From positions 1 to 51,621 of the IMG/VR virus record IMGVR_UViG_3300009159_000091: a DNA stretch of 51,621 nucleotides. The stretch is one strand, 5' to 3'. Each line of letters opens with the position of its first letter. Positions within the stretch are counted from its first letter, which is position 1. The DNA is from a virus. A program made the position numbers and the translations under genes. The notes beneath the pieces are model-generated. The model did not search any database. It was not told where the DNA came from and saw only the letters and a program-made list of their open reading frames with translations. Shown piece after piece: positions 21,467-49,454 of the stretch.

Positions 21467-23104
21467 TTACACTGTTGCAGCGTCTGATACGAAAATTTTC
21501 CCGTAAAACTCGGGTCTGATCATTTTCTTAGCGTATCTTGTCATAATACCTTTTCTCGGAGTAAATGTCGCTGGATCGTACACTAGTGGTGTCATCATTA
21601 ATGGAATATATGGAGCATAAACTGCACCTGTTTCCAAGAATTGAGATCCTCTGTAACCCATTAAGATAATGTTTTCAGTCATGTAAGGGTTTTTGTAAAC
21701 TCTAAATCTTGAGTTTAATTGTCCAACTTTTTGAACTCCCATTGCAAAATCCATTTTATCACCGTTTGTATCTGCTGCATATCCTGGAATTGATTCTAAG
21801 ATTGTAGCTACAGTTGGAGAACATACTAAGAAGTTTGCTCCACCTCTAAGTGTTTTTTGGTGAATTTTGTTAGATACTTTTTGGATTTTAGTTCCGATAG
21901 TTTGGAACCATTGTCCTTGAGTATTATAGAAACCAGAAGTTGATGTTGTCCATGCTCCGGCTGCAGTTGTACCAGTCCATACTTTGTTGTTAACAGCTGA
22001 CCATCTTTCAGTTGTAGCTGCGTCTTGAATCAACATATCAATTAACTCTAAGTCAATCTCCATAGAGATGTATTCCGATAATAATGATGTTAATTCTGCT
22101 TCAGCATCGATTGAGTGGTAAGCGTTAAGATCTTGTGCAAACTCTGGAGTCCATTGTGCTTTCAATTTTCTTGTTTTAGCAACGATAGCTTCAGAAGCAA
22201 GTGTTACGTTAATTTCAGGAATTGAAATTGTAGATGGTGCTTGTCCGCCAGTGGTTGGAATTTTTGTAGATCCATCCTCAAAGTCACCTCTTGATGTATC
22301 AAGTGGTTGTACTGAGTATGCTACTGATCCTACAACAGTTCCTGCAGCGTTGAAAGTTTTTTGAGTTGTATCAACTACGAATACTACTGTATTAGAAGAA
22401 GATAAGTAAGTTAACTCCGGATTAGTTGTAAAGTCTACTGATCCTGATAATAATCTGAAAGATCTAATAGCTTCTAAGTCTGAACCTGATAGGAAAGATG
22501 TTGCTACTTTTACTTCTCTAAAGTTAGTTGCTGTTAAATCTGTGTTATACGCAATAGATGCAGATGATGCTGATCCTGTTGCTGGTGTTGTTAAAGATGC
22601 AGTGTATTGGTTAGCAGAGTATCCGAATCTACCTGCTCCATATAAGCCTCCTGATACTTCTTCGTCTACTCCTATTTTATCGTTAGCTGTAGATACGTTT
22701 CCGTACATGTTGTTTGCACCTGTACTAGTAAATCCATTTGTTGTAGTACCATATTTAAAGTCTAAGTAGAAAATAAGACCTGATGGTAAGTTCATTGGTT
22801 GAACAGATAAGAAATCTTTAGCTGAAATTTGAGCGAATACTTTACGTACTAATGGTAAAGCTACTCCAGCCCATTGCTCAGCACCACCTGTTGATGTACC
22901 GATTGCACCGTTACCTGTTTGAGATGCTTCAGATACGATTTGTTTTGCTTGATTCTCAAGAATCATAGCCATGTTGTTTCTGTCGTTTACGTTAGAGATC
23001 CCCTCTAGTAAACCAGATTTAGCCCATTTTCCTGAAAGACGTTGAGCATCAGCTTGTAACGTCTTATAGTTCCCTGAACCTTCTAATAATTGATTTAATT
23101 CCAT
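21467..23104 (-). CDS. gp23: Major capsid protein, T4 gp23-like
   Basis: A 545-aa protein (T4 gp23 is 521 aa). The N-terminus MELNQLLEGSGN recalls gp23's LLEGEG. The motif SVQPMNLPSGLIFYLDFKYG is the conserved gp23 signature, and the C-terminus (GIMTRYAKKMIRPEFYGKIF) matches the family. A prohead-protease site is plausible after QIVSE (Glu59), near where T4 gp23 is cut at Glu65. It forms the hexamers of the head shell. It follows the scaffold gene and is closed by the strongest terminator in the window, fitting very high late expression. Confidence 0.95.
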   Translation of the reverse strand: MELNQLLEGSGNYKTLQADAQRLSGKWAKSGLLEGISNVNDRNNMAMILENQAKQIVSEASQTGNGAIGTSTGGAEQWAGVALPLVRKVFAQISAKDFLSVQPMNLPSGLIFYLDFKYGTTTNGFTSTGANNMYGNVSTANDKIGVDEEVSGGLYGAGRFGYSANQYTASLTTPATGSASSASIAYNTDLTATNFREVKVATSFLSGSDLEAIRSFRLLSGSVDFTTNPELTYLSSSNTVVFVVDTTQKTFNAAGTVVGSVAYSVQPLDTSRGDFEDGSTKIPTTGGQAPSTISIPEINVTLASEAIVAKTRKLKAQWTPEFAQDLNAYHSIDAEAELTSLLSEYISMEIDLELIDMLIQDAATTERWSAVNNKVWTGTTAAGAWTTSTSGFYNTQGQWFQTIGTKIQKVSNKIHQKTLRGGANFLVCSPTVATILESIPGYAADTNGDKMDFAMGVQKVGQLNSRFRVYKNPYMTENIILMGYRGSQFLETGAVYAPYIPLMMTPLVYDPATFTPRKGIMTRYAKKMIRPEFYGKIFVSDAATV

Positions 23105-24669: not shown

Positions 24670-25296
24670 TTATTTTTTTATTTGTTTACAATTTTCAAAA
24701 TGCCATCTAAGCATATTTGGTTTTTGACCTTCTTTGTTACAATGCGGACATTTTAATGTATGTCTGAATGTATTTTTTTCTGATATTTTTTGTCTGTCTG
24801 AGATTTCCTGTTTTTGTTTGTCTGATTTTGGGATTCCTAACCTTTGTTCAGATAATCTTTTTTTAACCTCTTCACTTACTTTATATCCTTTTCTTTTTTC
24901 AGATATCTTCTTCTTTGTTTCTTCAGAGTGTTTTTTTCCAAACATATAGTTCTTCTCTCCTTTCTTTGAGGTACTCATCCTATCTTTAGTTTCTTCAGAC
25001 ATTAGTCCTGATCTGTCACCTACTTTAGTGTATCTCAGATTTAATCCTGCTTTAGGATCTAGTACGTTGTAATACTCTTGCCAACTTCTCTCTTTTTCGT
25101 TTAATTCGGTGCTTTTACATTCTTCAATTATCTCAAAGATATGTTTTACTGGTGTGTACTTTTGTAGGGATCTGAGTAGCTTTACCTGTTGTGTGCAGTT
25201 TAGTTTTTCGTAGTACTGGAATCGCTGTTCTATTTTAGTACTTTGTCCTACGTATATTTTCCCTGTTGGGGATGTTATTTTATATATTCCTACCAT
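24670..25296 (-). CDS. GIY-YIG homing endonuclease with NUMOD3 motifs
   Basis: A 208-aa protein. The catalytic GIY-YIG domain is at the N-terminus: GIY at 3-5, KIYVGQS around 13-19 and an Arg at 25. Basic NUMOD3-like DNA-binding repeats follow (GKKHSEETKKKISEKRKG, SEEVKKRLSEQRLG). A finger CPHCNKEGQKPNM...HFENCK closes the protein. Free-standing enzymes of this kind (T4 Seg family) cut cognate phages and spread their own gene. It is inserted between the prohead protease and a small gene, splitting the 21-22 pair, with its own promoter-like box 13 nt upstream. It appears intact. Confidence 0.92.
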   Translation of the reverse strand: MVGIYKITSPTGKIYVGQSTKIEQRFQYYEKLNCTQQVKLLRSLQKYTPVKHIFEIIEECKSTELNEKERSWQEYYNVLDPKAGLNLRYTKVGDRSGLMSEETKDRMSTSKKGEKNYMFGKKHSEETKKKISEKRKGYKVSEEVKKRLSEQRLGIPKSDKQKQEISDRQKISEKNTFRHTLKCPHCNKEGQKPNMLRWHFENCKQIKK

Positions 25297-25340: not shown

Positions 25341-25922
25341 TTAAGCTCTTAGTATATTGTTTATGATTGAGTCTAGTTTTGCATACTTATTTATACTCTG
25401 TTTTCCCTCATTAAGGCGAATAGGTGTCATGAAAGCTCCATCTGTACTCGGATTTGAGACAAAATCCCAGCATACTAACTGAAAGTCGTCTTGAACCATT
25501 AAAGTTCCTTCATTTGTTTGTTGTACTGATCCTGTTCCACGAGATGATATTCCTATTGTATGTCCTCCTCTTAGGATTTCTTTTACGATGTTTCCTGAAG
25601 GGGTGTTTAGTAGTTCTACTTTTCCCATCAAATCATCACCTTGCCACCATAATTCCTTTACAACATGTGAGGCATTTTTTAATGATACAACTGGAGATTC
25701 TGGATGATCTAATTCACCATATGCATTCCCTACTTTTACAAAATTCTCTACATAGTTTTTTACTTCTTCTTCAAGAATTTCTCTTTTATAGATTCTTCCG
25801 TTTTGATTCTTTGCTCCTGCTCTTTGCATAATACCTGTTACTTCAAAAACACCTGGTTTGGTTTTTGATTCAGTAAGAAGTCCTTTGAAAGGAGTTACAT
25901 TTATTAATAGTGGATTGTTCAT
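25341..25922 (-). CDS. gp21: Prohead core protease, T4 gp21-like
   Basis: A 193-aa protein of the S77 serine protease family (T4 gp21, 212 aa). The likely catalytic His is in GELDHPE (His73) and the Ser in TIGISSRGTG (Ser126/127). NGRIYKREIL and the FVSNPSTDGAFM block also match the family. It matures the head by cutting after LxE/IxE. Its own GLLTES near residue 19 and the C-terminal LNEGKQ could be self-cleavage points. The start overlaps the stop of the upstream gene by one base. Confidence 0.93.
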   Translation of the reverse strand: MNNPLLINVTPFKGLLTESKTKPGVFEVTGIMQRAGAKNQNGRIYKREILEEEVKNYVENFVKVGNAYGELDHPESPVVSLKNASHVVKELWWQGDDLMGKVELLNTPSGNIVKEILRGGHTIGISSRGTGSVQQTNEGTLMVQDDFQLVCWDFVSNPSTDGAFMTPIRLNEGKQSINKYAKLDSIINNILRA

Positions 25923-27659: not shown

Positions 27660-28001
27660 TTATCTTTTATCAGATTTTTTTACTACCTTGTCTAGCTTAT
27701 AACCCATTTCTTCTGTTTTTTTTACTGCAGGACTTTTATCCATTTCTGTTTCTGAAACAAAAGCATGTGGTGTATTTACTTGTATTTCATCTAAGTATGC
27801 AAAGGCTTTTGTATCATATGGACGTTTTTTTAACTTAACTGTCGTAAAACCTAATCTTTCTCCTTGCTTTGTAGCAGCATTTTTACCTTGACCTTTTTTA
27901 GCAAATGCTTTAGGAGTTGAATATCCTCCAACAGCACCAGTCACATTACCTTCCTCTTCAAGTACTTCTTTAATCATCTGTTTTAATTGTGACTTTTTCA
28001 T
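27660..28001 (-). CDS. Small basic head-region protein, 113 aa
   Basis: N-terminus MKKSQLKQMIKEVLEEEGN, a targeting-like amphipathic segment with IKE and LEE. Then GGYSTPKAFAKKGQGKNAAT, a motif I associate with small proteins beside the portal gene in T4-like phages (recollection), and a lysine-rich C-terminus. It overlaps the upstream gene by ATGA. Small basic proteins here are candidates for prohead core or DNA-bound internal proteins, comparable to T4 gp67/gp68; the identity is not proven. Confidence 0.65.
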   Translation of the reverse strand: MKKSQLKQMIKEVLEEEGNVTGAVGGYSTPKAFAKKGQGKNAATKQGERLGFTTVKLKKRPYDTKAFAYLDEIQVNTPHAFVSETEMDKSPAVKKTEEMGYKLDKVVKKSDKR

Positions 28002-32925: not shown

Positions 32926-34302
32926 TTAAGTTACTTCTAATCCTAATGCGTTTTCTACTAATCTAGTTAAGTATTTGTCTCTTTGTGTCATTTTATTTTC
33001 TTTTACTGTTTCTTTTTCTTTTACTCCTATCTTAGTTGTTTTACCCCAAGTAGATGTTTTTGTTTTTCCGTCTTTAGTTTTTAGTGTTACTTCTACTTTT
33101 CCTGATGGTGTTCTAGCACCTGCAGATACAGATACTACTTCATCTCCTGATCCTATAATATCTCCTTTTTTAAGATGCTGTGCTTCTTTTGAGTTTTTTG
33201 ATACTTTGTATGATTTAGCTTCTTTTATGTTTGCTGAATCGAGGTTCTGATATACCATTTCTCTTTGCTGTGATGATAGCGGTTTGAAGTTCTCTAAGTT
33301 ACCTCCAAATTCTGGGAATAGTTTATTTGCAACTCTCATCATTTCTGCATGTTTTCTTTTTTCTGAATTTACCATGTCGAATCCTGCTTGCATTGATGCT
33401 GGTGCTACTTCTTCCATTCTGCTTCTACTTGCTAGTATATTGTTAACTGCATTTGGTGTACCTCCAAAACCTTTTGCACCCTTACCGCTTAGTATGTATC
33501 TCAATTCTTCGTCTGATATATTGGTATCTTGAATTTGATTATAGTACTTCATTCGTAACATGTTTTCTGATCTTGCATCTGCATCTTTAGTTAGTTCCTC
33601 AGGTGATCGGTCTAGTGGTTCGATAGCTGGATTTGAACTAGGTCTAGATAGTATATTTCTATCGTGAATACCTTCTTCCATTTCTTCTTCATTACCTTCC
33701 AAATACAATTGTCTATCTAAAATTAATTCTCCTACTATTCCGTAGTTTTCTTCTTCGAATTTTATTAATTCTTCTTCTGTTAATGGAGTTCCATCTTTAT
33801 ACTCTGCATAAGTAATGTAAGCATCTGTGAAGTCTGGATAGTCACTTGTATCTATGTCTTCAATCTCAATTGACCTAATATCTACTGGTTTTCCATTTAA
33901 TGAAGCTTCTTCGTTCATTTTATTTTTCATTGAATCAGATGCTTCTAGTAAACCTTCTTCCTTTAGTTGTGAATTAATATCCTCTTCAATAAAGTCTGCG
34001 ATGTACGATGATATCTCTTGTTCGTTTTGTATATCTTCTGAGCTAACAGGTTCTCCAGATACGTCTATTGATATAAAGTCGATATAACCGTCTTCATCTT
34101 CTAGTGCATAAAAGCAAGTATCCATTATACTTGAATCTTCTAAGCTGTAGATTTTTACTCCATCTATAGTAGTCATATAAAATCCTCCTGTTCCTTCTTC
34201 ATCGAAGTATTTGTAATCTTCTTGCTCTTCTTTTAAAAGTTTTGCGTTTTTTGTAAGTTTATTCTCTGTTAAGAATTGTCTTAAATTAAAGTTATCTGCC
34301 AT
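32926..34302 (-). CDS. Acidic 458-aa protein with FNLRxFLxENK start
   Basis: N-terminus NFNLRQFLTENKLTKNAKLL carries LTE, matching the prohead-protease consensus. An acidic beta-rich part follows (GGFYMTTIDGVKIYS, YIDFISIDVSGEPVS), a middle segment GAKGFGGTPNAVNNILASRS with EMMRVANKLFPEFGG, then a basic beta domain (KKGDIIGSGDEVVSVSAGAR, KVEVTLKTKDGKTKTSTW) and an ending MTQRDKYLTRLVENAL. It appears to be a mosaic of short modules. No catalytic motif is seen. Virion-internal role inferred from motif and position. Confidence 0.6.
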   Translation of the reverse strand: MADNFNLRQFLTENKLTKNAKLLKEEQEDYKYFDEEGTGGFYMTTIDGVKIYSLEDSSIMDTCFYALEDEDGYIDFISIDVSGEPVSSEDIQNEQEISSYIADFIEEDINSQLKEEGLLEASDSMKNKMNEEASLNGKPVDIRSIEIEDIDTSDYPDFTDAYITYAEYKDGTPLTEEELIKFEEENYGIVGELILDRQLYLEGNEEEMEEGIHDRNILSRPSSNPAIEPLDRSPEELTKDADARSENMLRMKYYNQIQDTNISDEELRYILSGKGAKGFGGTPNAVNNILASRSRMEEVAPASMQAGFDMVNSEKRKHAEMMRVANKLFPEFGGNLENFKPLSSQQREMVYQNLDSANIKEAKSYKVSKNSKEAQHLKKGDIIGSGDEVVSVSAGARTPSGKVEVTLKTKDGKTKTSTWGKTTKIGVKEKETVKENKMTQRDKYLTRLVENALGLEVT

Positions 34303-35581: not shown

Positions 35582-36142
35582 TTATAATGATGTTGGGGTT
35601 TCTTCTTCAGGACCTCCTCCTGCTTCTTCCTCGCCTCCGAAATCTGCTCCGGCTGCTTCACCACCTTCAGGTGCTGTTTCTACTCCAGGAAATTCTCCTC
35701 CACCGCCTCCGGCTGCTGGTTCTGCACCAGGTGTTTCTCCTCCGAATTGATCTGCTCCTGGTTCTTCTCCTTGAGAAATTGGGCCATTAATTAGTATTCT
35801 ATTTAAGGAATCTACTGCTTGTTGATATGATGATACTGTTCCTAAGTAGTAATTTTTTCCTTCTATGTTTGCATCAAAGTCTTTTCCTTCCCATTTCATA
35901 TTGAAGGTCTGCCCATTCTTTAACACTACTATAAAGGTAGTTGGTTTAGGAGCAACCCACTTAACATCCTCAACAAATTCATCAAATTCATGAGTTAGTA
36001 ATTTTACTAATGATTTTTTTAGGGTTGGAAATTTACCTAATATTAATTGGGTAGATGTTTTTAATGCAGGTACTTCTGGTGTTTCTTTTAATACTTCTAC
36101 GTATGCTTCTACTATTATATCTCTAAGTTCTGATCTTTTCAT
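35582..36142 (-). CDS. Head-region protein with targeting-like start and Gly/Glu-rich tail
   Basis: A 186-aa protein. N-terminus [20 protein letters not shown] contains IVE and LKE, possible protease sites. The central domain ([58 protein letters not shown]) is well formed and resembles a conserved domain in T4-like phages (recollection). From about residue 125 the protein is a low-complexity Gly/Glu/Pro/Ala tail. The start overlaps the previous stop by one base. Unknown function; a core or internal protein is likely. Confidence 0.65.
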
Positions 36143-37872
36143 TAGTCTCTAAATTTACAGTTTTTTTGACCTGTTAAATATGGTGTTGGATGTGCTGTTC
36201 CTTTTACATGAACATGGCCGCATTTATGACAACAGGTACTTTTAGCTTCTTCTAGAGCTACTGCTGCAATATTAACTTGCTGTTGCTCAGGCTTATTTAC
36301 TTCATAATCTAAGTATTGTCTTGCTGCAGATAGATTTGCTTTTGCATTAACAATTTTTGCTTGCCACCAATGTGGAAAATCAACTTCTTGTTGTCCTTCA
36401 AATTGTGCTACTAATTCATATAGGCTTTTTGCCGATTGCATTATACCGTATATATCTCCTAATAGCATTCCTGGTTCATCATCTTCATGACCTAAATCTA
36501 GATCCTCATTTAACCCTTTCCATCCCTGTGATTTCAATACTCCCATTATTGCATATACTGCATCTTGGGTTGAGTAATCATACATTTTTGCTAATCCGCC
36601 TACAAATCTATTTACATATTTTATAAGTTCTGGGTTTGTCCCTTCAGTCATATTTTTTGAAATAGCTTCTCTTCTTTTTACTAAGTATTTATCTGCTGAA
36701 TCTACTTTTCCGTCGTTGTTAATATCGTCATCTTCTTTTCCAACTGGATCTAGTTTTTCTGCTAATTTCTTTGCTTGAGCTGTTGCTATTGCATAGGTTC
36801 TTGCATCTTTTGGCTCACCTTCCTTCTTCATTGCTTTTACAATTTCTTCTCTCTTTTTAACTTCAGGCTTTGTAAGTTTTTTTTCTGCTACTTGATCTTC
36901 ATAGTCATCTTCATAATCATCTTCCGGTGAATCACATGCTTCTAAATCGTATTGAAGCTGTAGTTTTAAATCTTTAGCTGATTCTCCTGGATAATCTTTC
37001 TTAAGTCTAGCTAGTATCTGTGGATCATATATCATAGATTCTGCCATATCGTATGCAAATTCTGTACTTCCTGCATCATCAATTGCTCCTTGTAAGATTT
37101 TTCTGTATTGTGCTTCCGAGTAAGGACGAATTCCTTGTGGTTTTCTTTCTCTTGGCTGTCTATCAAAAAAGTTTGGATTATCTTGTAAAACTTTTTCTTT
37201 TCTAAAAGTTCTAACAGGTCCATTGTTTTGAGATCCCATAATTAAGTCATCTCTCATTCCTGTAAACTCAAAGTTACCTAATCCATTAATATTGAAGGTT
37301 GCTTCTGAAATATATTTATTCATTTGAGAGGGATCAGATTCTGGTTCCATTGCTGCTATTTGATCATACTCATCATCCGATGGTTCTGCTATATACTTTT
37401 TCATTGCATCACTTAGTTTATCTTCTAGTTCCGGAGTTGGGAGAGAGACGGTGTTTCCTTGTGTTATTATGAAGTCTACTAGTTCCATTGGCTCGTTTCC
37501 TAAATCTAATATAATACTTTCTGTATCTGGATTTAAAGTAAATTTAAAAACATCATGTCCTTTATCATTACTATACTTTACCTTAATATTGAATTTATTA
37601 AGTCCAACTCCTGTAAGTCTAATATCAACTACTTCATCTCCTTGTCCTCTTAGGGATTTAAGTAGTGATTTACCTACTACTTTTCCTACTGCACCTGCTT
37701 CTTCTGCAGTGTATTTTCTACCTGCTTCTTCTTCTAATTTTTCAGTGGCAGGGTCTACAAGTTGTACATCCATTCCTTTATCTGTATATTTTTTAATTTC
37801 AGTATCAGGTGTTCCTTTTTTTAGCTCTACTGATCCTTTTTCAACTTCTAGTAATTGCATTAATTTCTTCAT
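36142..37872 (-). CDS. Modular 576-aa protein with EF-hand-like loop and zinc-ribbon end
   Basis: N-terminus [13 protein letters not shown] fits the targeting pattern. Modules in order: a beta-rich domain (about 60-150); an acidic stretch near 170; [20 protein letters not shown], a phrase common in phage virion proteins; an EF-hand/dockerin-like loop [15 protein letters not shown] near 383; a helical block with [20 protein letters not shown]; and a C-terminal Cys-rich end [12 protein letters not shown]...NC that could bind zinc. It looks assembled from widely reused small domains. Probably a minor virion or internal protein; function unknown. Confidence 0.65.
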
Positions 37873-37929: not shown

Positions 37930-38247
37930 TTATTGACAATGGTAATTTAAGTATCTCTGTAATGCTTTTGCATAATGAGTACCTTTATCTTTTAATTCTG
38001 CTTTTGCAGCTCTTACTTTTGTACAAGATAATTTTCCTAATCTATCTTTTAATATTCCTGGTTGAACAGGATCATCTATTCCTTCTTCTATTTCCATTAG
38101 CTTTTTTCCAGCCTCTACTGCTGCTTTATAAGCTTTACTTCCTTTTCTTGCAGGCTTTCTACCACTTTTTCGCTTAGCATTTATGTTATCCCAAAGACTT
38201 TCTTCGAGAACTTCTTTAATTATCTCTCTTAGTTGGTTTTTTTTCAT
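37930..38247 (-). CDS. Small basic protein with targeting-like start, 105 aa
   Basis: N-terminus MKKNQLREIIKEVLEESLWD (IKE, LEE) runs into a second known phage phrase, SLWDNINAKRKSGRKPARKG followed by SKAYKAAVEAG. The C-terminus KLSCTKVRAAKAELKDKGTH is basic and helical. The composition suits DNA binding inside the head. The first 32 nt overlap the end of the upstream gene in another frame. Function unknown. Confidence 0.65.
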   Translation of the reverse strand: MKKNQLREIIKEVLEESLWDNINAKRKSGRKPARKGSKAYKAAVEAGKKLMEIEEGIDDPVQPGILKDRLGKLSCTKVRAAKAELKDKGTHYAKALQRYLNYHCQ

Positions 38248-38860
38248 TTTCTAAAGTATAATAGTAGATATTTTCATTTCCTTTTTCCATTGTCCATTTA
38301 TCTGAAACTGATTCACAGAACCATTCTTTATTATCTATCATCCAATCTGGTTTTTCTGGAAATGGTTGAGTTACGAAAGACATATCTCTCCACATTAGCC
38401 TATTATTAGGTTGGAGAGTAAAGTTTCCGTTATCAAGTTTAATTAAGTGAGCTGCTTTGTATTGGGTAGGTTCGTTGGAGTATGGGTTATTAAACCAATC
38501 AAAAGTCATTAAGTAATTTCCCCACTCTTTACTTCCGTCTTTAAATATTGCTTTTACTCTTGATTGTAATAGATAATCATATGTTGTAATAGATATATCA
38601 TGTCCAAAACAATCCCATAACTGTAAATGATCTAAAGCCATTCTAGGTGCATCATCTTTCCAAGCAAGCATATGGATTGGAACTCTTGATCTAACAGCTC
38701 CTTCATCAGTCATTATATGGAAAGTAAGAGCTCTTCCTCCTACAGATTGTACTCCAAACACTATTACATCTTGCATACCTTCTCTCCCGTCATGCTGGTA
38801 CATATGCTCGATTCTCATCTTAGCATAGAAATGAGGTATGGATGTATTTAGTGTTGGCAT
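38216..38860 (-). CDS. Conserved phage protein of unknown function, 214 aa
   Basis: A beta-rich soluble protein: MQDVIVFGVQSVGGRALTFH, PIHMLAWKDDAPRMALDHLQ, LWDCFGHDISITTYDYL, AAHLIKLDNGNFTLQPNNRL. This block is one I recall in T4-like marine phages, always unassigned. It lacks the LxE-type N-terminus of its neighbours. It starts one base inside the preceding gene and ends inside the next, so it belongs to the same operon. No enzyme motif identified. Confidence 0.65.
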   Translation of the reverse strand: MPTLNTSIPHFYAKMRIEHMYQHDGREGMQDVIVFGVQSVGGRALTFHIMTDEGAVRSRVPIHMLAWKDDAPRMALDHLQLWDCFGHDISITTYDYLLQSRVKAIFKDGSKEWGNYLMTFDWFNNPYSNEPTQYKAAHLIKLDNGNFTLQPNNRLMWRDMSFVTQPFPEKPDWMIDNKEWFCESVSDKWTMEKGNENIYYYTLENEKKPTKRDN

Positions 38861-39174
38861 TATTTTTCTCTTATTAATAATTCTCCCAATACTTCTAGTC
38901 TACCTACTTCTCTTTGAAATTCAATTTGAGACATATTTAAAGAGATTTTTTTATAAGTTTCTTCAAACTCTTTCTCTGCTTTTTCCATATCAAGCTTTCC
39001 TTCAACAGCTTTCTTATAATAAGGAGCTTTTACTTTAAAATGGTGCCAAGTAAGTAGAGCAAGTCCTCCTTTTTCATGAGCATTTGATGCTATTTTAGCG
39101 GCTCCTTCTCCTCTGGTTTTAGCAAAGTCTTCAAAAGCCTCTTTAGCTTCTCTTAATAGTTCTAGTAGTTTCAT
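38860..39174 (-). CDS. Small helical protein with T4-like targeting start, 104 aa
   Basis: N-terminus MKLLELLREAKEAFEDFAKT is one of the best matches in the window to the T4 signal MKTYQEFIAE, with LRE followed by AKE. The rest is helical (EKGGLALLTWHHFKVKAPYY, LDMEKAEKEFEETYKKI, ending RLEVLGELLIREK). No cysteine or catalytic motif. Starts 3 nt after the upstream stop. Proposed internal head protein by motif; function unknown. Confidence 0.65.
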   Translation of the reverse strand: MKLLELLREAKEAFEDFAKTRGEGAAKIASNAHEKGGLALLTWHHFKVKAPYYKKAVEGKLDMEKAEKEFEETYKKISLNMSQIEFQREVGRLEVLGELLIREK

Positions 39175-39176
39175 AT

Positions 39177-39647
39177 CTATTTTGTTTTACCCCAAGTTTT
39201 ACCTTTTCCTTTTGTCTTACATTGAGCAGGTGTTGGTCTACATGCTGGGTATTTTGATCTTTTTTCTCCTTCTTGTCTTCCGCAGGATTTATATCCTCCT
39301 TTTCCGTCAGGTGCATTACAGTCAACCCATCCTTTGGATTTTCCTTTTGCTCCTTTTCTTGAGAACCATTTACGAAGTGATTCGTCCTCTTGTAGTAGTT
39401 CTTGGATTGCTTGTTTTACTTTCTTAAGCCCTGAACCATAAGGTGCTGCTTTACCTGATTGTGGATCTTCGGTTTCTTTTATGTCTTTCCAGATATCTCC
39501 TTTTCTACATCTAACAATTGCTCCTGATCTATACGCTGAGGGTTTATCGTATTTTGTTCTAGCAATACGTAGACACCTATCTGCTTTCTCTTCAGATAAA
39601 ACTTCTTTAATTAGTTGAACTAAATATAAGTTATTTACCCTGTCCAT
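39177..39647 (-). CDS. Basic Cys/Gly-rich protein, 156 aa
   Basis: N-terminus VNNLYLVQLIKEVLSEEKAD carries IKE/LSE. Then RCLRIARTKYDKPSAYRSGA, VRCRKGDIWKDIKE, RKWFSRKGAKGKSKGWVDCN, GYKSCGRQEGEKRSKYPACR and a PTPAQCK end. Six or more cysteines in these short basic motifs suggest metal or DNA binding. The last block is a module I recall at the ends of several marine phage proteins and some large eukaryotic viruses. Overlaps the 45-aa gene at its start by 17 nt. Function unknown. Confidence 0.65.
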   Translation of the reverse strand: MDRVNNLYLVQLIKEVLSEEKADRCLRIARTKYDKPSAYRSGAIVRCRKGDIWKDIKETEDPQSGKAAPYGSGLKKVKQAIQELLQEDESLRKWFSRKGAKGKSKGWVDCNAPDGKGGYKSCGRQEGEKRSKYPACRPTPAQCKTKGKGKTWGKTK

Positions 39648-40398: not shown

Positions 40399-40966
40399 AA
40401 CCTAACTCTTTTAGTTTGTTTATAACTGATTGGATTTCTCCATCCTTTACCTCTAATGCTATACCTCCTTTACCAGCAAATGCTGCTAAATTACTTGGCT
40501 TATCATCTATTAATATAGCATTTTCATTTGCAAAATCCGACTTAGCTTCTCCGAATCTAAATTCTACAGGCGGTGTTGGAGATAAGTGTTCTTTTACCCA
40601 TAATCTTTTTCCTAATCTTGAAGCATTATGTCTAGAGGGTGAAGTAAGTATTATCGGGTTATATGGTTCTATAAAAGACCACAATGCTTTTCCATTTTGC
40701 ATCCATTCCATTCCTGACCAAAAATCCGGACCTAATTCATCTATAAAACGCCAAAATTCTGCCTGTCCTTCTAGTTTTTCAAAATGCTTTGGCCTAGTTA
40801 CTTGCTTTATTACTTCTTTTGAGTAGTATTTAGTACCTTCTCTTCTTAACTCATCAACAAATCTCTTTTCAAAATTCGTTAATACCCCGTCCATATCACA
40901 GTAGATTTGATATTTTGGATAATAATCTTCCTCTGTAAGTAGTAATTCTTTTAATGATGTTATCAT
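40379..40966 (-). CDS. HAD-superfamily 5'(3')-deoxyribonucleotidase-like phosphatase
   Basis: A 195-aa protein. HAD motifs in order: YCDMDGVLTNFE (nucleophile Asp24, acid Asp26), IILTSP (Thr108 or Ser109), Lys142 in GEAKSDFA, and ILIDDKPSN (Asp154/155). The aromatic cap (FWRFIDELGPDFWSGMEW) resembles NT5C-type nucleotidases, which dephosphorylate nucleoside monophosphates. Unlike free enzymes it begins with an extra segment, MITSLKELLLTEEDYYPK, that contains LTE and resembles a head-targeting leader. Adjacent to a metallopeptidase and a zinc protein. Substrate not determined. Confidence 0.85.
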   Translation of the reverse strand: MITSLKELLLTEEDYYPKYQIYCDMDGVLTNFEKRFVDELRREGTKYYSKEVIKQVTRPKHFEKLEGQAEFWRFIDELGPDFWSGMEWMQNGKALWSFIEPYNPIILTSPSRHNASRLGKRLWVKEHLSPTPPVEFRFGEAKSDFANENAILIDDKPSNLAAFAGKGGIALEVKDGEIQSVINKLKELGYGRELT

Positions 40967-41337
40967 AACCTGTTTATTTTAAATTTATTCCAATTTTCTT
41001 CTTCCTGTCTTGCCTGTATTTCATAGGGATGATCTGTATAACTATATCCTTGCTTATAGTACCTTGTCATCCAAGTTGGTGATTGAAGATAATGTTTATA
41101 TTCATGCAATAATGTTCTTATCAGATCCTCTTCTGTTTTTATATTTTTCCAATATACGTTAATATCAGTCTCTATGTGACAGAATTCACCTTTTATCGTC
41201 TTATGTTCTGCATCACTATATGGACTATCTTCAATGTATATGTAGGGAAAGGAGGCATGATGTTTACTCATGCCATAGTGTTTCTGTATCTTCTCTATAT
41301 ACAATTCTGTTAAGTTTTCTACAACTCTTTTATCCAT
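40963..41337 (-). CDS. Small HExxH metallopeptidase-like protein, 124 aa
   Basis: The zinc motif LLHEYKHYLQSP (HExxH) is followed 20 residues on by HPYEIQARQEE, whose Glu could be the third ligand, a minigluzincin/SprT-like arrangement. The N-terminal half (YGMSKHHASFPYIYIEDSPY, GEFCHIETDINVYWKNI) resembles the beta sheet preceding the active-site helix. No pro-region or signal peptide. It overlaps the large fusion gene by 8 nt, which itself ends in a second HExxH domain. Substrate unknown; host or virion protein processing is inferred. Confidence 0.7.
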   Translation of the reverse strand: MDKRVVENLTELYIEKIQKHYGMSKHHASFPYIYIEDSPYSDAEHKTIKGEFCHIETDINVYWKNIKTEEDLIRTLLHEYKHYLQSPTWMTRYYKQGYSYTDHPYEIQARQEEENWNKFKINRL

Positions 41338-43954
41338 TCTTTTGACTATCCTCCCAGTTTCTAAAACACATATTACCTTCTAGATATGCTTCTTTTTCTA
41401 TTTCCTGTAAGTGACTATCTTCGTTGGTATTTGTTGTTTGTATGTTACCTAATCTACCTTCTAGATTCTGTATATGATGAATCATCTCATGAGTAAAAGA
41501 TCTACATACATCTTTCGGGTGTCTTCCTAGTACATATAAAACTACTTCTTTATTATCTGGATCATAGTATGCTGTTTTTCCAAAGAAATTACCTGCTTCT
41601 TGAGGATCTTTTTTAATTTTAATTTCCGGAAAAGGTACTATTTTCATCTTTTGATCAAGCATATATCCTAATATAGATGCAAGATGTGGTGTATAATCGA
41701 AATCATTTACAGCACATTCGTTTAATTTACCTTGGAATGGTGTATAATCAAAACTTATAGGATTTTGTAATTTATTAGTAATAACTATCCTATCTTGTTG
41801 AAAGACTATTTCAAATTCTTCCTTAGGGATATAAATTTTTAAATCATCATATAGTCTGTTTAATACTGCCCTGTCAGCAGAAGGTATCGCAGATGAAGCT
41901 GCTATCGGAGTACCTGTTGAATTTTCCTCTAGTGGATGTACTTGTTGTTTTTTCTTCATTACTACCATTTTTCCAGGTCCTTCTGGTGATTTAAACGGCA
42001 TGCTTACATCTTTTCTAAAATACCCTGGTATTCTGTTTGCTTTATTATCTGTTAGACTTGCATATACTGTCTGATAGTTTCTACCTTCCTCATTATCTAG
42101 TGACCCTATTCCTAGGTAATCTGGTTGATGCTGTTCAATAAAATCTAATATAATTTTATACATAGTAGATAATATCTTTACGTAATTTTCTTTACCGCCT
42201 TGTGGAGTTGATACTTTACTCTTTATAGGGTGAAATGCAATATTATAAAAAGTACCTTCATCCCCGTATGGACTTTTTGCAAATGGAGTTATCGAATATC
42301 TATATTTTGAATCTCCTACTGCAAATGTTCCTGACATTGTTCCACCATTTATCTTTACTGCATTATCTTTAGAAAAAGATATTTCATGTAGTGCTTTTTG
42401 AAAATAAGAGCTTAGTGGCTTAGGGTATGCAAACTTCCCTTCATCTAAGTATAAGTCATGTTTTTTACTTGGAAAAAAGTTATTAAATACTTCTTCTATA
42501 CTATCTGACATTCTATCTTCTATAGATTTTGGAGTCACTATATCTATAATTGCTTGCTTATCTTGTTGTGATACTACTGATGGAATCCATTTTCCTGATA
42601 GCATATATTCTTCTGAACTCCTTATTACCGATGCTGAGAATTTATCATCTTCTTTGGTTGCAATAATTGGAAGTTCCATTAGTTCTACTTTCGGATACTT
42701 ATCTTTATTTTTAATAATACCGGAAAATTTTTTCATTTCATCGGCAGTAGTTCCTGTAATAATTTTATCTACTTTAGGTTGATTTTCGTCAATCCATAAA
42801 TATGTATCTAAGATAGGAGTTTTTTCACTTATATAAACTTCAACTGGAGTAGCTAGGTATTTTGCGTATATTTCCCAAATAGCTTTTGACTGCTGAGCAG
42901 TAATTGGTACTCCTTCTCTAACTAGTGGTCCAATAAATATAACTAATTTATCGGCTTGATTCCCTAATATTTTTGCATTCTCATAATGTACCTTATGAGG
43001 TGGTTTAAATCCTCCAGCATAGATAGCTACAGTTTTTGTTTCATTGCCATTCTCCAATAAACTATTAACTTTATTTAAAGCTGCTTCCTTATCAGCTCCT
43101 TTTGGTGTACCTGTTTCTCCTGCTCCAATTACTAACATTGATTTAAAAGTACCTTTGATCCTATTTTTAGATCTTTGGCTTCTCCATTGCTTATCTATCA
43201 ATTGCTTTAATAATTGCTCAAAGGAACCGTTTATATTATAATCTTTGAATAATGTTTCAACATCCGGCCATTTATAGGACATCCATATATCACGTCTTTC
43301 TACTTCTCTAAAGTTTTCTAAAGTGACAATTCTTAAAGTTAGCCCTTTTGATGATAGTACGAATTCGTATTCTTGATTTTCCTTTAATTGAGGTACTTCT
43401 TTTATCCCTAATCTTTTAAATATTTCAAATGGATCTTCTTCAATACACATTGTTTTTGCTAATCCGATTAACAATGCTTGTTTAGGGCCTGGAATGTCTA
43501 AGAATGAGGTTCTATAGTTTGATTCTTCTTCAGTAGAAACAATCATATTGTCTATTTGAACTGTAAGATCAGGAAATCCTTCAATAGGATACTGGGTAAT
43601 TACTATATCACCTGTTCCTGCTGTCTTCTTCCCTGTATGCCTTCCTGCTCTAAAGGGTACTGTTATAGTGTCTGAAAGAGAATTAAGATATGCTGCAAAA
43701 TCAGCTTTTATCTTTTTCATATCCTCTCTGCTACCTTCTAACTCAACAACTAAATCAATATCTCCGTGACCTTCTGGTTTCTCTTGCCCTCCAACTACTT
43801 CACCGTTTTCATCCTTTGGAATAACATTGTATGATCCAGTTATTTTAGCACTTTTAAATGTAGGGTATTTTTTAAGTACCTTTTCTATAAAAGAATCTAC
43901 AGTCTTTTTAACTGCCGAACTTGGTATTCTATTTGCTCCTATCGATCCTGACAT
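41330..43954 (-). CDS. Multidomain nucleotidyltransferase, cytidylyltransferase and metallopeptidase fusion, 874 aa
   Basis: Three enzyme-like domains in one chain. (1) Residues 35-260: Pol-beta-type nucleotidyltransferase, ITGSYN at 38-43, GHGDIDLVV at 62-70 and a further Asp in VQIDNMIV. (2) Residues 307-470: HxGH-class adenylyl/cytidylyltransferase, YAGGFKPPHKVH at 312-323 (Gly replaced by Val) and SASVIRSS at 440-447. (3) Residues 740-874: zinc peptidase, SFTHEMIHHIQN (HExxH 822-826) with acidic residues at 851-860. The region 490-680 is a separate mixed domain. The upstream neighbour is another nucleotidyltransferase. Substrates and virion packaging are unknown. Confidence 0.8.
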   Translation of the reverse strand: MSGSIGANRIPSSAVKKTVDSFIEKVLKKYPTFKSAKITGSYNVIPKDENGEVVGGQEKPEGHGDIDLVVELEGSREDMKKIKADFAAYLNSLSDTITVPFRAGRHTGKKTAGTGDIVITQYPIEGFPDLTVQIDNMIVSTEEESNYRTSFLDIPGPKQALLIGLAKTMCIEEDPFEIFKRLGIKEVPQLKENQEYEFVLSSKGLTLRIVTLENFREVERRDIWMSYKWPDVETLFKDYNINGSFEQLLKQLIDKQWRSQRSKNRIKGTFKSMLVIGAGETGTPKGADKEAALNKVNSLLENGNETKTVAIYAGGFKPPHKVHYENAKILGNQADKLVIFIGPLVREGVPITAQQSKAIWEIYAKYLATPVEVYISEKTPILDTYLWIDENQPKVDKIITGTTADEMKKFSGIIKNKDKYPKVELMELPIIATKEDDKFSASVIRSSEEYMLSGKWIPSVVSQQDKQAIIDIVTPKSIEDRMSDSIEEVFNNFFPSKKHDLYLDEGKFAYPKPLSSYFQKALHEISFSKDNAVKINGGTMSGTFAVGDSKYRYSITPFAKSPYGDEGTFYNIAFHPIKSKVSTPQGGKENYVKILSTMYKIILDFIEQHQPDYLGIGSLDNEEGRNYQTVYASLTDNKANRIPGYFRKDVSMPFKSPEGPGKMVVMKKKQQVHPLEENSTGTPIAASSAIPSADRAVLNRLYDDLKIYIPKEEFEIVFQQDRIVITNKLQNPISFDYTPFQGKLNECAVNDFDYTPHLASILGYMLDQKMKIVPFPEIKIKKDPQEAGNFFGKTAYYDPDNKEVVLYVLGRHPKDVCRSFTHEMIHHIQNLEGRLGNIQTTNTNEDSHLQEIEKEAYLEGNMCFRNWEDSQKNG

Positions 43955-43955
43955 G

Positions 43956-44867
43956 TTATACTGTTTTATATTTTACTAAGATAGAATCGTCCGGTAAGAA
44001 TTTACCTGTTAATCCTAACCTCTCTTGATTATCTATCCAATATTGCTGTAGATCTTCTGGAATATCTGCTCTTGTGCTTTCTAGTATTTTTAAATAAGTA
44101 TCGAAAATTCCATTGAGGTCTTCCGGTGATAGATTCTTTCTTAAAGCTTCCATAACATCGAAATAGTTTGCTACAGAGTCTTTTGTAAGCTGTAATCCAT
44201 ACCTCTTATTTAATACTTCAATTGCTTGTTGCGGTGTAGTTGCTACTACTTCTCCTGTTTCTTTACTTTTAACTCCATTTGCATGTGAGAAAGTATATCC
44301 ACCATGAGAGAACATAGCTACTAGTAATTGAGTTCTATGTAATCCTTTTACGTTTCCTTTATATACTGCTGAATAATGTGAGAACTCTAACCAATCTACA
44401 TCACCGATATTTATATCAATTTGTACACTAGTTCCATTTGTTTCTCCTGCTTCGTTATATTGTGGAAACATTAAGAATAGCTGACCTGAACCAGCTCCTT
44501 TCATATCCGGTACAATATCTGAGTTTGAATTTTGAAGTACTTCTGCTGTAGCTACAACAACTGCTCTTCTCATTAACTGTTCATCCGAAGCTGTTCTTGC
44601 TCTCTTTTTAAATGCTTCAAACAATTTCATGATATGGTCTCTATCTAATCCCCAATCATCAACATCATCAAAAGATGATCCTGCTAATACTAGGTCGATA
44701 TCTCCTGATACGTCTTTTTTCCCTACAGATCCTAATGTTTTCATTGTTGAAAAATGTGCTTCTGCTTTAGGGTATATTTGCTTAAATTGTTTTAAAAACT
44801 CTTTAAGAGTAGGTTTTATATCCTCTTTCTTTATTGATGCTGTATTTCCAAATACGTTTCCTCCCAT
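43956..44867 (-). CDS. Nucleotidyltransferase-like protein, 303 aa
   Basis: MGGNVFGNTASIKKEDIKPT, then TLGSVGKKDVSGDIDLVL: GS at 46-47 and DxD at 56-58, the Pol-beta superfamily signature, plus SVQIDINIGDVDWL as the probable third acidic position. Close to a family I recall from cyanophages and pelagiphages (MGGNVF... start). It probably transfers a nucleotide to a small molecule, RNA or protein; the target is unknown. It ends 1 nt before the fusion gene, whose first domain belongs to the same superfamily, so the pair may have arisen by duplication. Confidence 0.75.
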   Translation of the reverse strand: MGGNVFGNTASIKKEDIKPTLKEFLKQFKQIYPKAEAHFSTMKTLGSVGKKDVSGDIDLVLAGSSFDDVDDWGLDRDHIMKLFEAFKKRARTASDEQLMRRAVVVATAEVLQNSNSDIVPDMKGAGSGQLFLMFPQYNEAGETNGTSVQIDINIGDVDWLEFSHYSAVYKGNVKGLHRTQLLVAMFSHGGYTFSHANGVKSKETGEVVATTPQQAIEVLNKRYGLQLTKDSVANYFDVMEALRKNLSPEDLNGIFDTYLKILESTRADIPEDLQQYWIDNQERLGLTGKFLPDDSILVKYKTV

Positions 44868-46688: not shown

Positions 46689-46808
46689 TTATATTAATTT
46701 TTTAAGTATTAATTCATTCTGCTTTATCAGATTAAATGTTTTTAATACTGATTTTCTGCTCTTACTTGTTCTAGTTCTTTGCGGTGATGTATGATTTCCT
46801 CTAGCCAT
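46689..46808 (-). CDS. Tiny basic protein, 39 aa
   Basis: Starts MARGNHTSPQRTRTSKSRKS and continues VLKTFNLIKQNELILKKLI before TAA. The ATG overlaps the stop of the kinase-like gene (TAATG). The first half is very basic (Arg/Lys/Ser), the second a short amphipathic helix. Too short for family assignment. Its coupling to the upstream gene and the terminator 9 nt after its stop support it as the last gene of a transcript. Confidence 0.55.
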   Translation of the reverse strand: MARGNHTSPQRTRTSKSRKSVLKTFNLIKQNELILKKLI

Positions 46809-47248
46809 TATACGTCTATTATTTTTACCTTACCTGTTCTATCTTGCATTACATTATCCATTTTAATTGAACCTCCAGGTCCTTGTAAGTCTGGGTATAT
46901 GTTTAGTCTTTCTGCTTCTAATTCTATTTCTTCGATTGGAACTGTATCAGGTGCTGCAGTATATGGTTGTAGATATTCCATTGTAATTACTGCTAGTTTT
47001 GGATTTATTTCCTCTACATCATAAATATAAGCAAAGTACTTTGTTTTTACTTGCTTAATCTGCTTTGCATCTTCAATTTCTTCTCCGTCAGTTGTTATTT
47101 TTAGCACTTTATCTCCTAATAAAAAAGCAGATCCATAATCACCTGATCCTAAAAATTTACCTCCTTGTTGTTTTACTTTTTCAACTAGGTCTTGGTAGTC
47201 TTGGGTAGGTGTTAATATCTCTTTTAGTATAGAAAGTATTTTTATCAT
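46808..47248 (-). CDS. Miniature protein-kinase-like protein, 146 aa
   Basis: N-terminus MIKILSILKEILTPTQDYQD carries LKE. Then kinase-like signatures in order: glycine loop FLGSGDYGSAFL (33-43), KVLKITTDG with a possible ATP-binding Lys50, hinge AVITMEYLQ (87-94), YPDL (118-121) as a possible catalytic loop, DNVMQD (131-136) and a terminal KIIDV where Asp145 could be the DFG Asp. The protein ends there, with no C-lobe helices, so it is a minimal kinase fold or pseudokinase. Substrate unknown. Overlaps neighbours by one base on both sides. Confidence 0.65.
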   Translation of the reverse strand: MIKILSILKEILTPTQDYQDLVEKVKQQGGKFLGSGDYGSAFLLGDKVLKITTDGEEIEDAKQIKQVKTKYFAYIYDVEEINPKLAVITMEYLQPYTAAPDTVPIEEIELEAERLNIYPDLQGPGGSIKMDNVMQDRTGKVKIIDV

Positions 47249-47724
47249 TAGTCTAATCCGCCCATTGCTCTTACTGCTTGTCCTTGCTTTTGATCATAAG
47301 GTGCACTAAATTGGATTGTATCACCATGAGCATCTAATTCAAATTGAGTTATTGGAGAATCTTGTACTGCTTCCATTGCTTGTGCTGCATCTGTTAGCTT
47401 CTGTACTGTTCCTCTACCTGTAGCTATTTTATAATATTTTGCTCCTCTATTGTTCTCAATATAAGTGATTGCATCATTTTTTGAGTACATTTTACCTTCT
47501 CCTTCATCAAGTGGTATGTCTGGATTTCCTCTATCTAATATATCGTTTCCTCTTTTTGGATCTCCTTTATACTTCTCTTCTTCTTCAGGACGTTGTTTTG
47601 CAATTGCTGTTAAAATGTTTCTAAAGTCGTCTGTTGTACCTCCTTGAGTAGTTCCTCCTGGTGCATATTTAGAATAGCCGGTTATTTCTTTTAGTACTAG
47701 TTCTCGTAATTGTGATCTTTTCAT
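47248..47724 (-). CDS. 158-aa protein with targeting-like start
   Basis: The start at 47724 was chosen over the upstream in-frame ATG (47787). There the protein begins MKRSQLRELVLKEITGYSKY, nearly the N-terminus of the protein at 35582-36142 ([14 protein letters not shown]). The ATG also overlaps the stop of a 30-aa ORF (ATGA). The rest (GAKYYKIATGRGTVQKLTDA, TQFELDAHGDTIQFSAPY) has no recognised domain. LKE near residue 12 fits the protease consensus. Function unknown. Confidence 0.65.
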   Translation of the reverse strand: MKRSQLRELVLKEITGYSKYAPGGTTQGGTTDDFRNILTAIAKQRPEEEEKYKGDPKRGNDILDRGNPDIPLDEGEGKMYSKNDAITYIENNRGAKYYKIATGRGTVQKLTDAAQAMEAVQDSPITQFELDAHGDTIQFSAPYDQKQGQAVRAMGGLD

Positions 47725-47813
47725 TGTTTTCTTTTTAGTTCTACCATAAACAGAATTGTTCCTAATACTAATACTGTTAGTATCCAATAATACCCTGTAA
47801 TCTCTGCTTCCAC
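47721..47813 (-). CDS. Single-span membrane peptide, 30 aa, GTG start
   Basis: From GTG at 47813 the frame reads MEAEITGYYWILTVLVLGTI followed by LFMVELKRKQ and TGA. One 17-residue hydrophobic segment is flanked by an acidic N-terminus and a basic C-terminus (KRKQ), so a membrane orientation with the C-terminus inside is likely. It overlaps the upstream cupin stop (TAG/GTG) and the downstream ATG (ATGA). This exact nesting between two genes supports translation. Role unknown. Confidence 0.55.
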   Translation of the reverse strand: MEAEITGYYWILTVLVLGTILFMVELKRKQ

Positions 47814-48456: not shown

Positions 48457-49020
48457 TTACCAGTATCCTGAGAAGTTCTTAGCTCCTCCTAATGATTTCC
48501 AATATCTTCCTATATGACATCCCCAGTAATTTGGTGATAATCTATTCTTTTCTGTAGCACATTTATGCCTAGCTGCAAAAGAATGTCTTGCTTTTGGATC
48601 ATCTATCTTAACTGATAATCCTGTTGTACCTCCGAATTGTACTTTTTTTACTTTTTTTGATTTTGGATCTTTAACATATACTACGAACTTTTTAGATCCT
48701 CCTCTTTTTGGCTTACCCAATTGAACTTTCTTCCCATGATACTCTGCTTCATCAAGTTTTTGTTCGTTTACTAATGGTAGATCTAAAGGAACTTTTACCC
48801 CTTCATACATTCCATATTCTCCAATATCTGTATTTTCTAATAAATCTAAATCTTGTTCATTTAGTGTTACTTTACCGTCTCTAAGAGCTTGTCTTGCTTC
48901 AGCAAATAATTGTATAAACGAATCAGAAGAATAGCGGTAGACACATTCAGATAACGTCAGTTTGTTATCTAAATGGTACTGTAAGGTTGGTAAACCAACT
49001 ATCTCTTGTAATTTTATCAT
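48457..49020 (-). CDS. 187-aa protein ending in an RHxC/YWxC domain
   Basis: The N-terminus is helical, with LTLSECVYRYSSDSFIQLFA and a GKVTLNEQDLDLLENTDIGE acidic part. The C-terminal domain reads KVQFGGTTGLSVKIDDPKAR, HSFAARHKCATEKNRLSPNY and WGCHIGRYWKSLGG. The RH-x-C...YW-x-C pattern is a module I recall at the C-termini of many marine phage proteins, probably zinc-binding. It overlaps the SegE-like gene by ATGA. Function unknown; a virion component is possible. Confidence 0.7.
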   Translation of the reverse strand: MIKLQEIVGLPTLQYHLDNKLTLSECVYRYSSDSFIQLFAEARQALRDGKVTLNEQDLDLLENTDIGEYGMYEGVKVPLDLPLVNEQKLDEAEYHGKKVQLGKPKRGGSKKFVVYVKDPKSKKVKKVQFGGTTGLSVKIDDPKARHSFAARHKCATEKNRLSPNYWGCHIGRYWKSLGGAKNFSGYW

Positions 49021-49454
49021 ACGAAATCTTTTCTAAAATATCTTCCTTCTATATTATCATTTATATAGTTAGAATCTGGTTCTATTACTCCTTTAATAAA
49101 TAGTAATTTATTCTCATAATAAGTATGAAGCTTTTTGTTTGGAGTAAAGATAAGAATTTCTCTTGAGAATTCCGACTGTTTACCTTCTTTTATTAGCTGT
49201 TTTATTTCCGGATGAGATCCGTGATAGGTTTTCCAATCAGATTCTTTCTTAACTATCTTAGATTTACTAGTTCTTTTATCTGTTACTAAGGCTAATTCTT
49301 TTTTTCCTAAAGCTTTTTTTGTAACAGAAATAAGTTGTTTCTTTCCTAAGTATTTTCTACCGGTTGGTAGATGTGTTACTTCATAGATAAACCCGAAGTT
49401 ATCTCCGGGCATATCTGTAAGTTCGTTTATTTGTTTATCTTTATATAACCACAT
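49017..49454 (-). CDS. SegE-like GIY-YIG domain protein
   Basis: A 145-aa protein. MWLYKDKQINELTDMPGDNF, then GFIYEVTHLPTGRKYLGKKQ form a GIY-YIG core (FIY...KYLG) of the type I recall in T4-like phages as putative endonuclease SegE. ESDWKTYHGSHPEIK and YYENKLLFIKG continue the family pattern. It lacks NUMOD or finger DNA-binding modules and sits tightly within an operon (ATGA with the next gene). It may therefore be a resident nuclease rather than a homing enzyme. An inverted-type TATAAATAG variant lies inside the gene at 49094-49103. Confidence 0.75.
   Translation of the reverse strand: MWLYKDKQINELTDMPGDNFGFIYEVTHLPTGRKYLGKKQLISVTKKALGKKELALVTDKRTSKSKIVKKESDWKTYHGSHPEIKQLIKEGKQSEFSREILIFTPNKKLHTYYENKLLFIKGVIEPDSNYINDNIEGRYFRKDFV

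Follow-up and report, generated by a model that had tools for sequence, protein, structure and literature searches.

How several enzyme domains chained in one phage protein would be put to use is the question raised by P0001, an 874-amino-acid (aa) open reading frame (ORF) whose coordinates, 41330-43954 on the minus strand, were confirmed in IMG/VR virus record IMGVR_UViG_3300009159_000091. Positions 1 to 51,621 of that record, hereafter the window, belong to a T4-like phage with hosts of Flavobacterium type, closely related to the immuto phages (Immutovirus) of that genus, whose laboratory host is Flavobacterium sp. LMO8; this 51,621-base fragment and the immuto phages have in common the gene order from the tail proteins to the terminase. 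An earlier note, made from the sequence, had read P0001 as a nucleotidyltransferase, an HxGH cytidylyltransferase and a HExxH peptidase in one chain, and had suggested a host-takeover effector or a self-processing polyprotein. We consider it reasonably probable that P0001 is a head-internal polyprotein, cut at its domain junctions by the prohead protease, whose enzymes are injected with the DNA; packaging, cleavage, injection and enzyme activity are what we infer. The chain is composed as follows.

43100-43954, minus strand: pol-beta-fold nucleotidyltransferase domain, residues 1-285, with G40 S41, D65xD67 and D135
42509-43039, minus strand: HIGH-superfamily nucleotidyltransferase, residues 306-482, with GGFKPPHKVH and SAxxIR
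41933-42439, minus strand: Mid domain, residues 506-674, movable and matching no known family
41735-41908, minus strand: PreZ domain, residues 683-740, small alpha/beta, directly before the zincin
41333-41707, minus strand: zincin I, residues 750-874, with H822 E823 H826 and E853 (HEMIHH)

Since P0001 alone matched nothing usable by sequence in Pfam, PHROGs or the Protein Data Bank (PDB), relatives were needed to assign its domains. A profile scan of IMG/VR gave 232 relatives, the best 80 of which were fetched, and residue conservation was read from an alignment of 56 P0001-family sequences. The pol-beta residues D65, D67 and D135 are kept in 40/40 sequences having that domain, H320, H323 and R445 of the HIGH domain in 53/53, and zincin residues H822, E823, H826 and E853 are invariant (56/56). 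Pfam CTP_transf_like is matched by 33 of the 56 (best 2.5e-6) and NTP_transf_2 by 7 (7.4e-4), Polbeta matches occur among the relatives as well, and the zincin side gives weak matches to Peptidase_M91 in 12 and DUF6782 in 9. Foldseek returns DNA polymerase lambda/beta as the best matches of the N-terminal domain (E 1.8e-5), the middle (HIGH) domain compares with CoaD (TMt 0.62) and NadM, and IrrE-N-like and SprT-like zincins stand among the viral-model fold matches, tied to the C-terminal domain by length and description. In the predicted model the zincin ligands are shared between consecutive helices, 813-831 and 847-873, a gluzincin-like HExxH with a Glu on the following helix, and the zincin profile has no significant match against PDB. 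With the ORF in place, its catalytic signatures conserved, and the Pfam and fold matches in agreement, the three enzyme domains of the earlier note stand; the structure prediction it proposed bears out the nucleotidyltransferase and HExxH segments, while the profile search succeeds through relatives and not with P0001 alone.

The name it gave to the second enzyme requires revision. Membership of the HIGH superfamily holds, by the (H/T)xxH motif, the C-terminal [ST]xTxIR-type motif and the Rossmann-like fold, but the motif in P0001 is HKVH, with the expected Gly of HxGH replaced, and the nearest solved relatives are adenylyltransferases, not cytidylyltransferases: a profile search with the domain finds archaeal NMNAT MJ0541 at 2.6e-4, and also PPAT and NadM. 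Position 322 is V in P0001, A in 28/53 and G in 18/53, so that substitution of the Gly (by A or V) is a trait of most of the fused clade. A fourth segment of the chain (about 506-674), the Mid domain, lay beyond the earlier note; its model confidence is about 26-72, and a family search found none, apart from a weak DUF6934 match in the relative L095 only.

The evidence on how the chain would be divided lies in its linkers. T4 gp21 cleaves after L/I-x-E, and capsid-targeting leaders carry cargo proteins into the head (PMC9026906). Sites of this kind are predicted in P0001 as follows, an arrow marking the cut.

43052-43054, minus strand: predicted site KVNSLLE↓NGNET, E301, at the pol-beta/HIGH junction; homologues ...TLSE↓A
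42440-42523, minus strand: residues 478-505, amphipathic helix KMxDxIxxxF, then a low-confidence linker and the predicted site DLYLDE↓GKFAY, E505
41924-41926, minus strand: predicted site VHPLEE↓NSTG, E677; homologues VKE↓GSSGT
41717-41719, minus strand: predicted site QGKLNE↓CAVND, E746, at the PreZ/zincin junction

The predicted local distance difference test (pLDDT) of the P0001 model falls below 50 at 490-537, 618-688 and 731-749; E505, E677 and E746 lie within these stretches, and E301 borders a block of about 69. The Glu at 677 is kept in 50/56 sequences, though its flanks are not confidently folded. Across the family, [LIVM]xE[GAS] occurs 84 times in 4484 aa of linkers versus 92 times in 28890 aa of domains and 19±4 times in shuffled linkers, which is a density 5.8 times that of the domains and 4.4 times that of the shuffled linkers. 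In a stricter test on 25 less similar, non-redundant members, 44 motifs were observed versus 13.5±4.0 expected; of 19 residues tried at the position of E, E alone was enriched and none of the others exceeded expectation by 1 standard deviation, and shifting E one place toward or away from the hydrophobic residue gave no enrichment. Taken junction by junction, [LIVM]xE followed by a small or polar residue is present at 27/29 pol-beta/HIGH and 36/37 HIGH/PreZ junctions, the latter preceded by a conserved amphipathic helix, KMxDxIDxVFxxFF. A head-core set, used as positive control, is enriched as well (18 versus 7.2 expected), and a control of portal, terminase, PhoH, primase and exonuclease is not (7 versus 6.3). 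We conclude that the family linkers are, by these counts, specifically enriched in the T4 gp21-type specificity [LIVM]-x-E↓[GAS]. Because the junctions carry this prohead-protease signature, P0001 probably enters the head as a chain, is cut there and is delivered with the DNA.

Split genes of the family connect the linker with the leader. In L057 and L063 a stand-alone zincin begins with the same helix and site; the zincin I gene of L063 begins MKDVMLKTIDKVLDDMFSIEQVRKITE↓ASSGT, an internal linker turned N-terminal leader. In L095/L096, MNQLVQILIED or MNKLVQTLIEN precedes the HIGH domain. The leaders of P0001 are, on its predicted sites, internal and not N-terminal. Elsewhere in the block, leader-like starts are MKKNQLREIIKEVLEE, MKLLELLREAK and MITSLKELLLTEE. 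Among immuto genes, the leader pattern is enriched in the P0001-type block (8/24 genes versus 1.9 expected), reaches 3/16 in the head set (1.3 expected) and 2/14 among baseplate and fibre genes (0.7 expected), and shows no excess in early genes (5/52 versus 5.6 expected) or in tail genes (0/25 versus 1.8 expected). Capsid-targeting-like starts occur in the window at 27660-28001, 32926-34302, 35582-36142, 36142-37872, 37930-38247, 38860-39174, 46808-47248 and 47248-47787, which makes these genes candidates for injected proteins. One short peptide, NPQDGKAAPYGSGYKK, which reads DPQSGKAAPYGSGLKK in the window, turns up in unrelated proteins of these phages, namely a DUF5872-like protein (window 39177-39647) and the P0001-family linkers of L008 and L011.

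The relatives present the same domains in many arrangements. The earlier note presented the joining of all three enzymes in one chain as unfamiliar; such peculiarity is rejected by the architectures of the relatives, the triple fusion being present in cultured immuto phages and dozens of viral contigs. The common core is HIGH plus zincin I, to which the immuto-like clade adds the pol-beta domain; pol-beta, HIGH and zincin are the usual architecture of its P0001-type gene. Many relatives have a second zincin fused C-terminally, or a small zincin as the next gene, and a gene for NT5C then comes in nearly all loci extending far enough. The Mid domain occupies the same place in the window and L015, and stands behind the zincin in L095/L096. 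Linkers receive other inserts: another pol-beta nucleotidyltransferase (L056), a weakly YunG-like domain (L066), and in L049 a weakly ADP-ribosyltransferase (ART)-like domain plus another HExxH-type motif. The L049 gene (L049:3980-7363) encodes a 1127-aa relative in which a zinc-ribbon-like stretch, the weak ADP-ribosyltransferase-like (HYD1) match and the additional HExxH-type motif stand between the HIGH domain and the zincin. Natural fission is seen too, with zincin I alone in L057, L062 and L063, zincin II alone in L119, and a split chain in L024.

The window genes that accompany P0001, or would act on it, are these.

43956-44867, minus strand: P0002, 303 aa, a second pol-beta-fold nucleotidyltransferase
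40963-41337, minus strand: P0003, a separate small zincin (HEYKH), overlapping the P0001 stop codon
40379-40966, minus strand: P0004, 5'(3')-deoxyribonucleotidase (NT5C), with the capsid-targeting-like leader MITSLKELLLTEE
25341-25922, minus strand: prohead (head maturation) protease, gp21 type (phrog_207, 5.9e-52), with its own leader FKGLLTE↓SKT
21467-23104, minus strand: major capsid protein, gp23 type, with LLE↓G motifs at the N-terminus

P0001 and P0002 are spaced by one base, and this gap, together with the stop-codon overlap of P0003, makes the three look like one transcription unit. That P0002 repeats the first domain type, as the earlier note had said, is confirmed by its homology to the N-terminal domain of P0001 (hhalign E 8e-6) and by a model (pLDDT 91.9) whose best fold matches are the palm of pol beta/lambda; because TM-scores near 0.37 denote a shared palm only, polymerase function is not to be assumed. 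P0003, a second zincin gene that the earlier note did not include, substitutes for the zincin II that relatives have fused at the C-terminus, and the two never occur together in the loci examined. A GIY-YIG/NUMOD3 homing-type endonuclease at 24670-25296 adjoins the prohead protease gene.

A link between leader, HIGH nucleotidyltransferase and virion comes from cyanophages. Virion proteomes of S-CBWM1, S-SZBM1, S-SCSM1 and S-CREM2 contain NMNAT- or cytidylyltransferase-like proteins (PMC10665884, PMC9602691, PMC9146016), and three such genes (S-CREM2 gp154, S-SZBM1_140 and S-SCSM1_91) each open with a typical leader; the three leaders are MKNFSSFLTE↓A, MRFRQFIIE↓A and MKSFLQFLKE↓A. They resemble P0001 in being virion-detected HIGH nucleotidyltransferases with a capsid-targeting leader, and differ in that they have no fused zincin I or N-terminal pol-beta domain (0/3 matched the family profiles). 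By analogy, these genes link the three elements independently; because homology of the HIGH domain is weak by score, the support is one of family plus leader. Two genes after the S-CREM2 virion cytidylyltransferase, gp156 (L156:4013-4726) carries a pol-beta-type nucleotidyltransferase motif, GGNANYNYTPYSDIDLHLVVD, an echo of the P0002/P0001 pairing.

Several observations weigh against a packaged and cut chain. Taken by itself, P0001 is not enriched in the motif (2 observed versus 2.9 expected), so that the claim about junction sites rests on the family; Glu at its four sites is followed by N, G, N and C; and its folded domains contain motifs with E as well. Neither P0001, which starts MSGSIGANRIPSS, nor P0002 has an N-terminal leader. 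Among the controls, tail proteins are mildly enriched (19 versus 11.6, p 0.02), and a related, helix-like pattern, [GAS]E.[LIVM], is likewise above expectation (26 versus 13.6). The zincin I/zincin II junction scored 3/22, because its site (VMAE↓GRYD, QITE↓GKYD) falls inside the zincin II model used. The cyanophage virion proteins are distant homologues (best 11.5 bits in the 17-protein set), the authors of their proteomes noted possible carry-over (PMC10665884, PMC9602691, PMC9146016), and an immuto-like virion proteome was not found in the literature searched.

If the chain is packaged and cut, P0001 would be made late, as a pol-beta nucleotidyltransferase, a HIGH adenylyltransferase-like nucleotidyltransferase, a Mid domain and a zincin, with most cassettes joined by an amphipathic helix and an L/I-x-E site of the kind that elsewhere forms a capsid-targeting leader at the N-terminus. 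P0001 would become part of the prohead core, the gp21-type protease would cut its junctions during head maturation, and the freed enzymes would be injected along with the DNA, to act on nucleotides or proteins of the host at an early stage. The HIGH domain may pass a nucleotide, probably AMP, onto a small molecule, the pol-beta domains may transfer a nucleotide to some acceptor, and the zincins may cleave a host or phage protein.

The main rival takes up the self-processing polyprotein of the earlier note: a polyvalent protein that its own zincin would divide into domains, either ahead of packaging or once injected. In polyvalent proteins the zincin is the hub domain and is proposed to carry out their processing (PMC5512222); its catalytic residues are invariant here, and often another zincin is fused to the chain or encoded next to it. 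Yet the junctions match a prohead-protease specificity that requires no embedded peptidase, zincins also occur as stand-alone genes, several of which open with that site, and similarity to Pfam MPTase-PolyVal (PF18818) is weak, 2 of 11 members at 0.013 being below significance. Because the junctions bear the gp21 motif L/I-x-E, self-release by the zincin is less likely than cutting by the prohead protease, and we regard it as improbable; the idea of a polyprotein, or of delivery, nevertheless fits the evidence. We hold it just as improbable that the intact chain goes into the head and then into the host as a multi-enzyme effector, its L-x-E motifs being idle or merely trimming. The N4 virion RNA polymerase, which is also zincin-fused, is indeed packaged unprocessed (PMC5512222), but in the P0001 family the site is conserved at several junctions and natural fission takes place at similar places.

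Marginally less likely again is an ordinary cytoplasmic late enzyme outside the virion, for example a nicotinamide mononucleotide (NMN) adenylyltransferase restoring NAD+, with a fused peptidase. Its closest solved relatives are NMNAT and PPAT, the record of the immuto homologue gp088 is labelled NMN adenylyltransferase, and phage NAD+ salvage is known (PMC9503650). However, every NadM-containing phage is reported to have NadV (PMC9503650), the partner nicotinamide phosphoribosyltransferase (NAPRTase) was found in 1/8 related phage records, and the junction motifs and cassette shuffling would be left unexplained. The absence of NAPRTase from 7/8 related records, some possibly incomplete, weakens NAD+ salvage as the main role and leaves NAD+ restoration possible but doubtful. 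In the window, 49017-49454, the homologue of immuto gp100 ('NAD synthetase'), is a SegE-type GIY-YIG endonuclease (Pfam 1.9e-26); the gp100 label therefore looks wrong and gives no support for an NAD pathway.

A packaged polyprotein cut by the prohead protease can be compared with three known systems. Immutovirus gp088 (NC_055915, Flavobacterium phage immuto_2-6A) is the same gene in a sequenced isolate, with the same neighbours and with pol-beta, HIGH and zincin I, 52.6% identical to P0001 over 81% of the query; it differs in being without the Mid domain and in having the second zincin fused C-terminally, whereas the window has a separate P0003. T4 IPI-III and Alt share the short leader, the L/I-x-E site, late genes and a gp21-type protease in the same genome, but they are single cargoes with one leader, whereas the P0001 family chains enzymes with a site per junction. 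Polyvalent proteins (Iyer et al., 2017; PMC5512222) likewise chain unrelated enzyme domains, with a zincin, late genes and shuffled cassettes, to which the weak ART-like (L049) and YunG-like (L066) matches may be compared; P0001 resembles them in joining at least two domains of disparate activity and in lying close to virion genes. They differ in that release is credited to the embedded peptidase, the HIGH superfamily is absent from the text of PMC5512222, and pol-beta nucleotidyltransferases are described there only in conjugative elements. Literature joining prohead protease, polyprotein and targeting sequence was not found in a search with most subscription journals outside its coverage. 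Polyvalent proteins and T4 capsid-targeted proteins are thus each known, and a chain with sites at its junctions combines both.

In T4-like phages, single head proteins are carried by short cleaved leaders. For the immuto-like clade, we lean slightly towards a broader proposal: injected enzymes would be made as true polyproteins, with one capsid-targeting event, a fixed ratio and release in the head by the prohead protease, and evolution would add or swap 'leader plus domain' cassettes at the junctions. If true, this would mean that a DNA phage uses a polyprotein strategy, and it would explain the large 'unknown' multi-enzyme genes beside the head genes of aquatic T4-like phages. A leader helix with L/I-x-E at domain borders would offer a sequence rule for injected cargo in uncultured phages, with termini directly predicted for proteomics, and it may bear on the recurrence of NMNAT-like transferases in phage virions.

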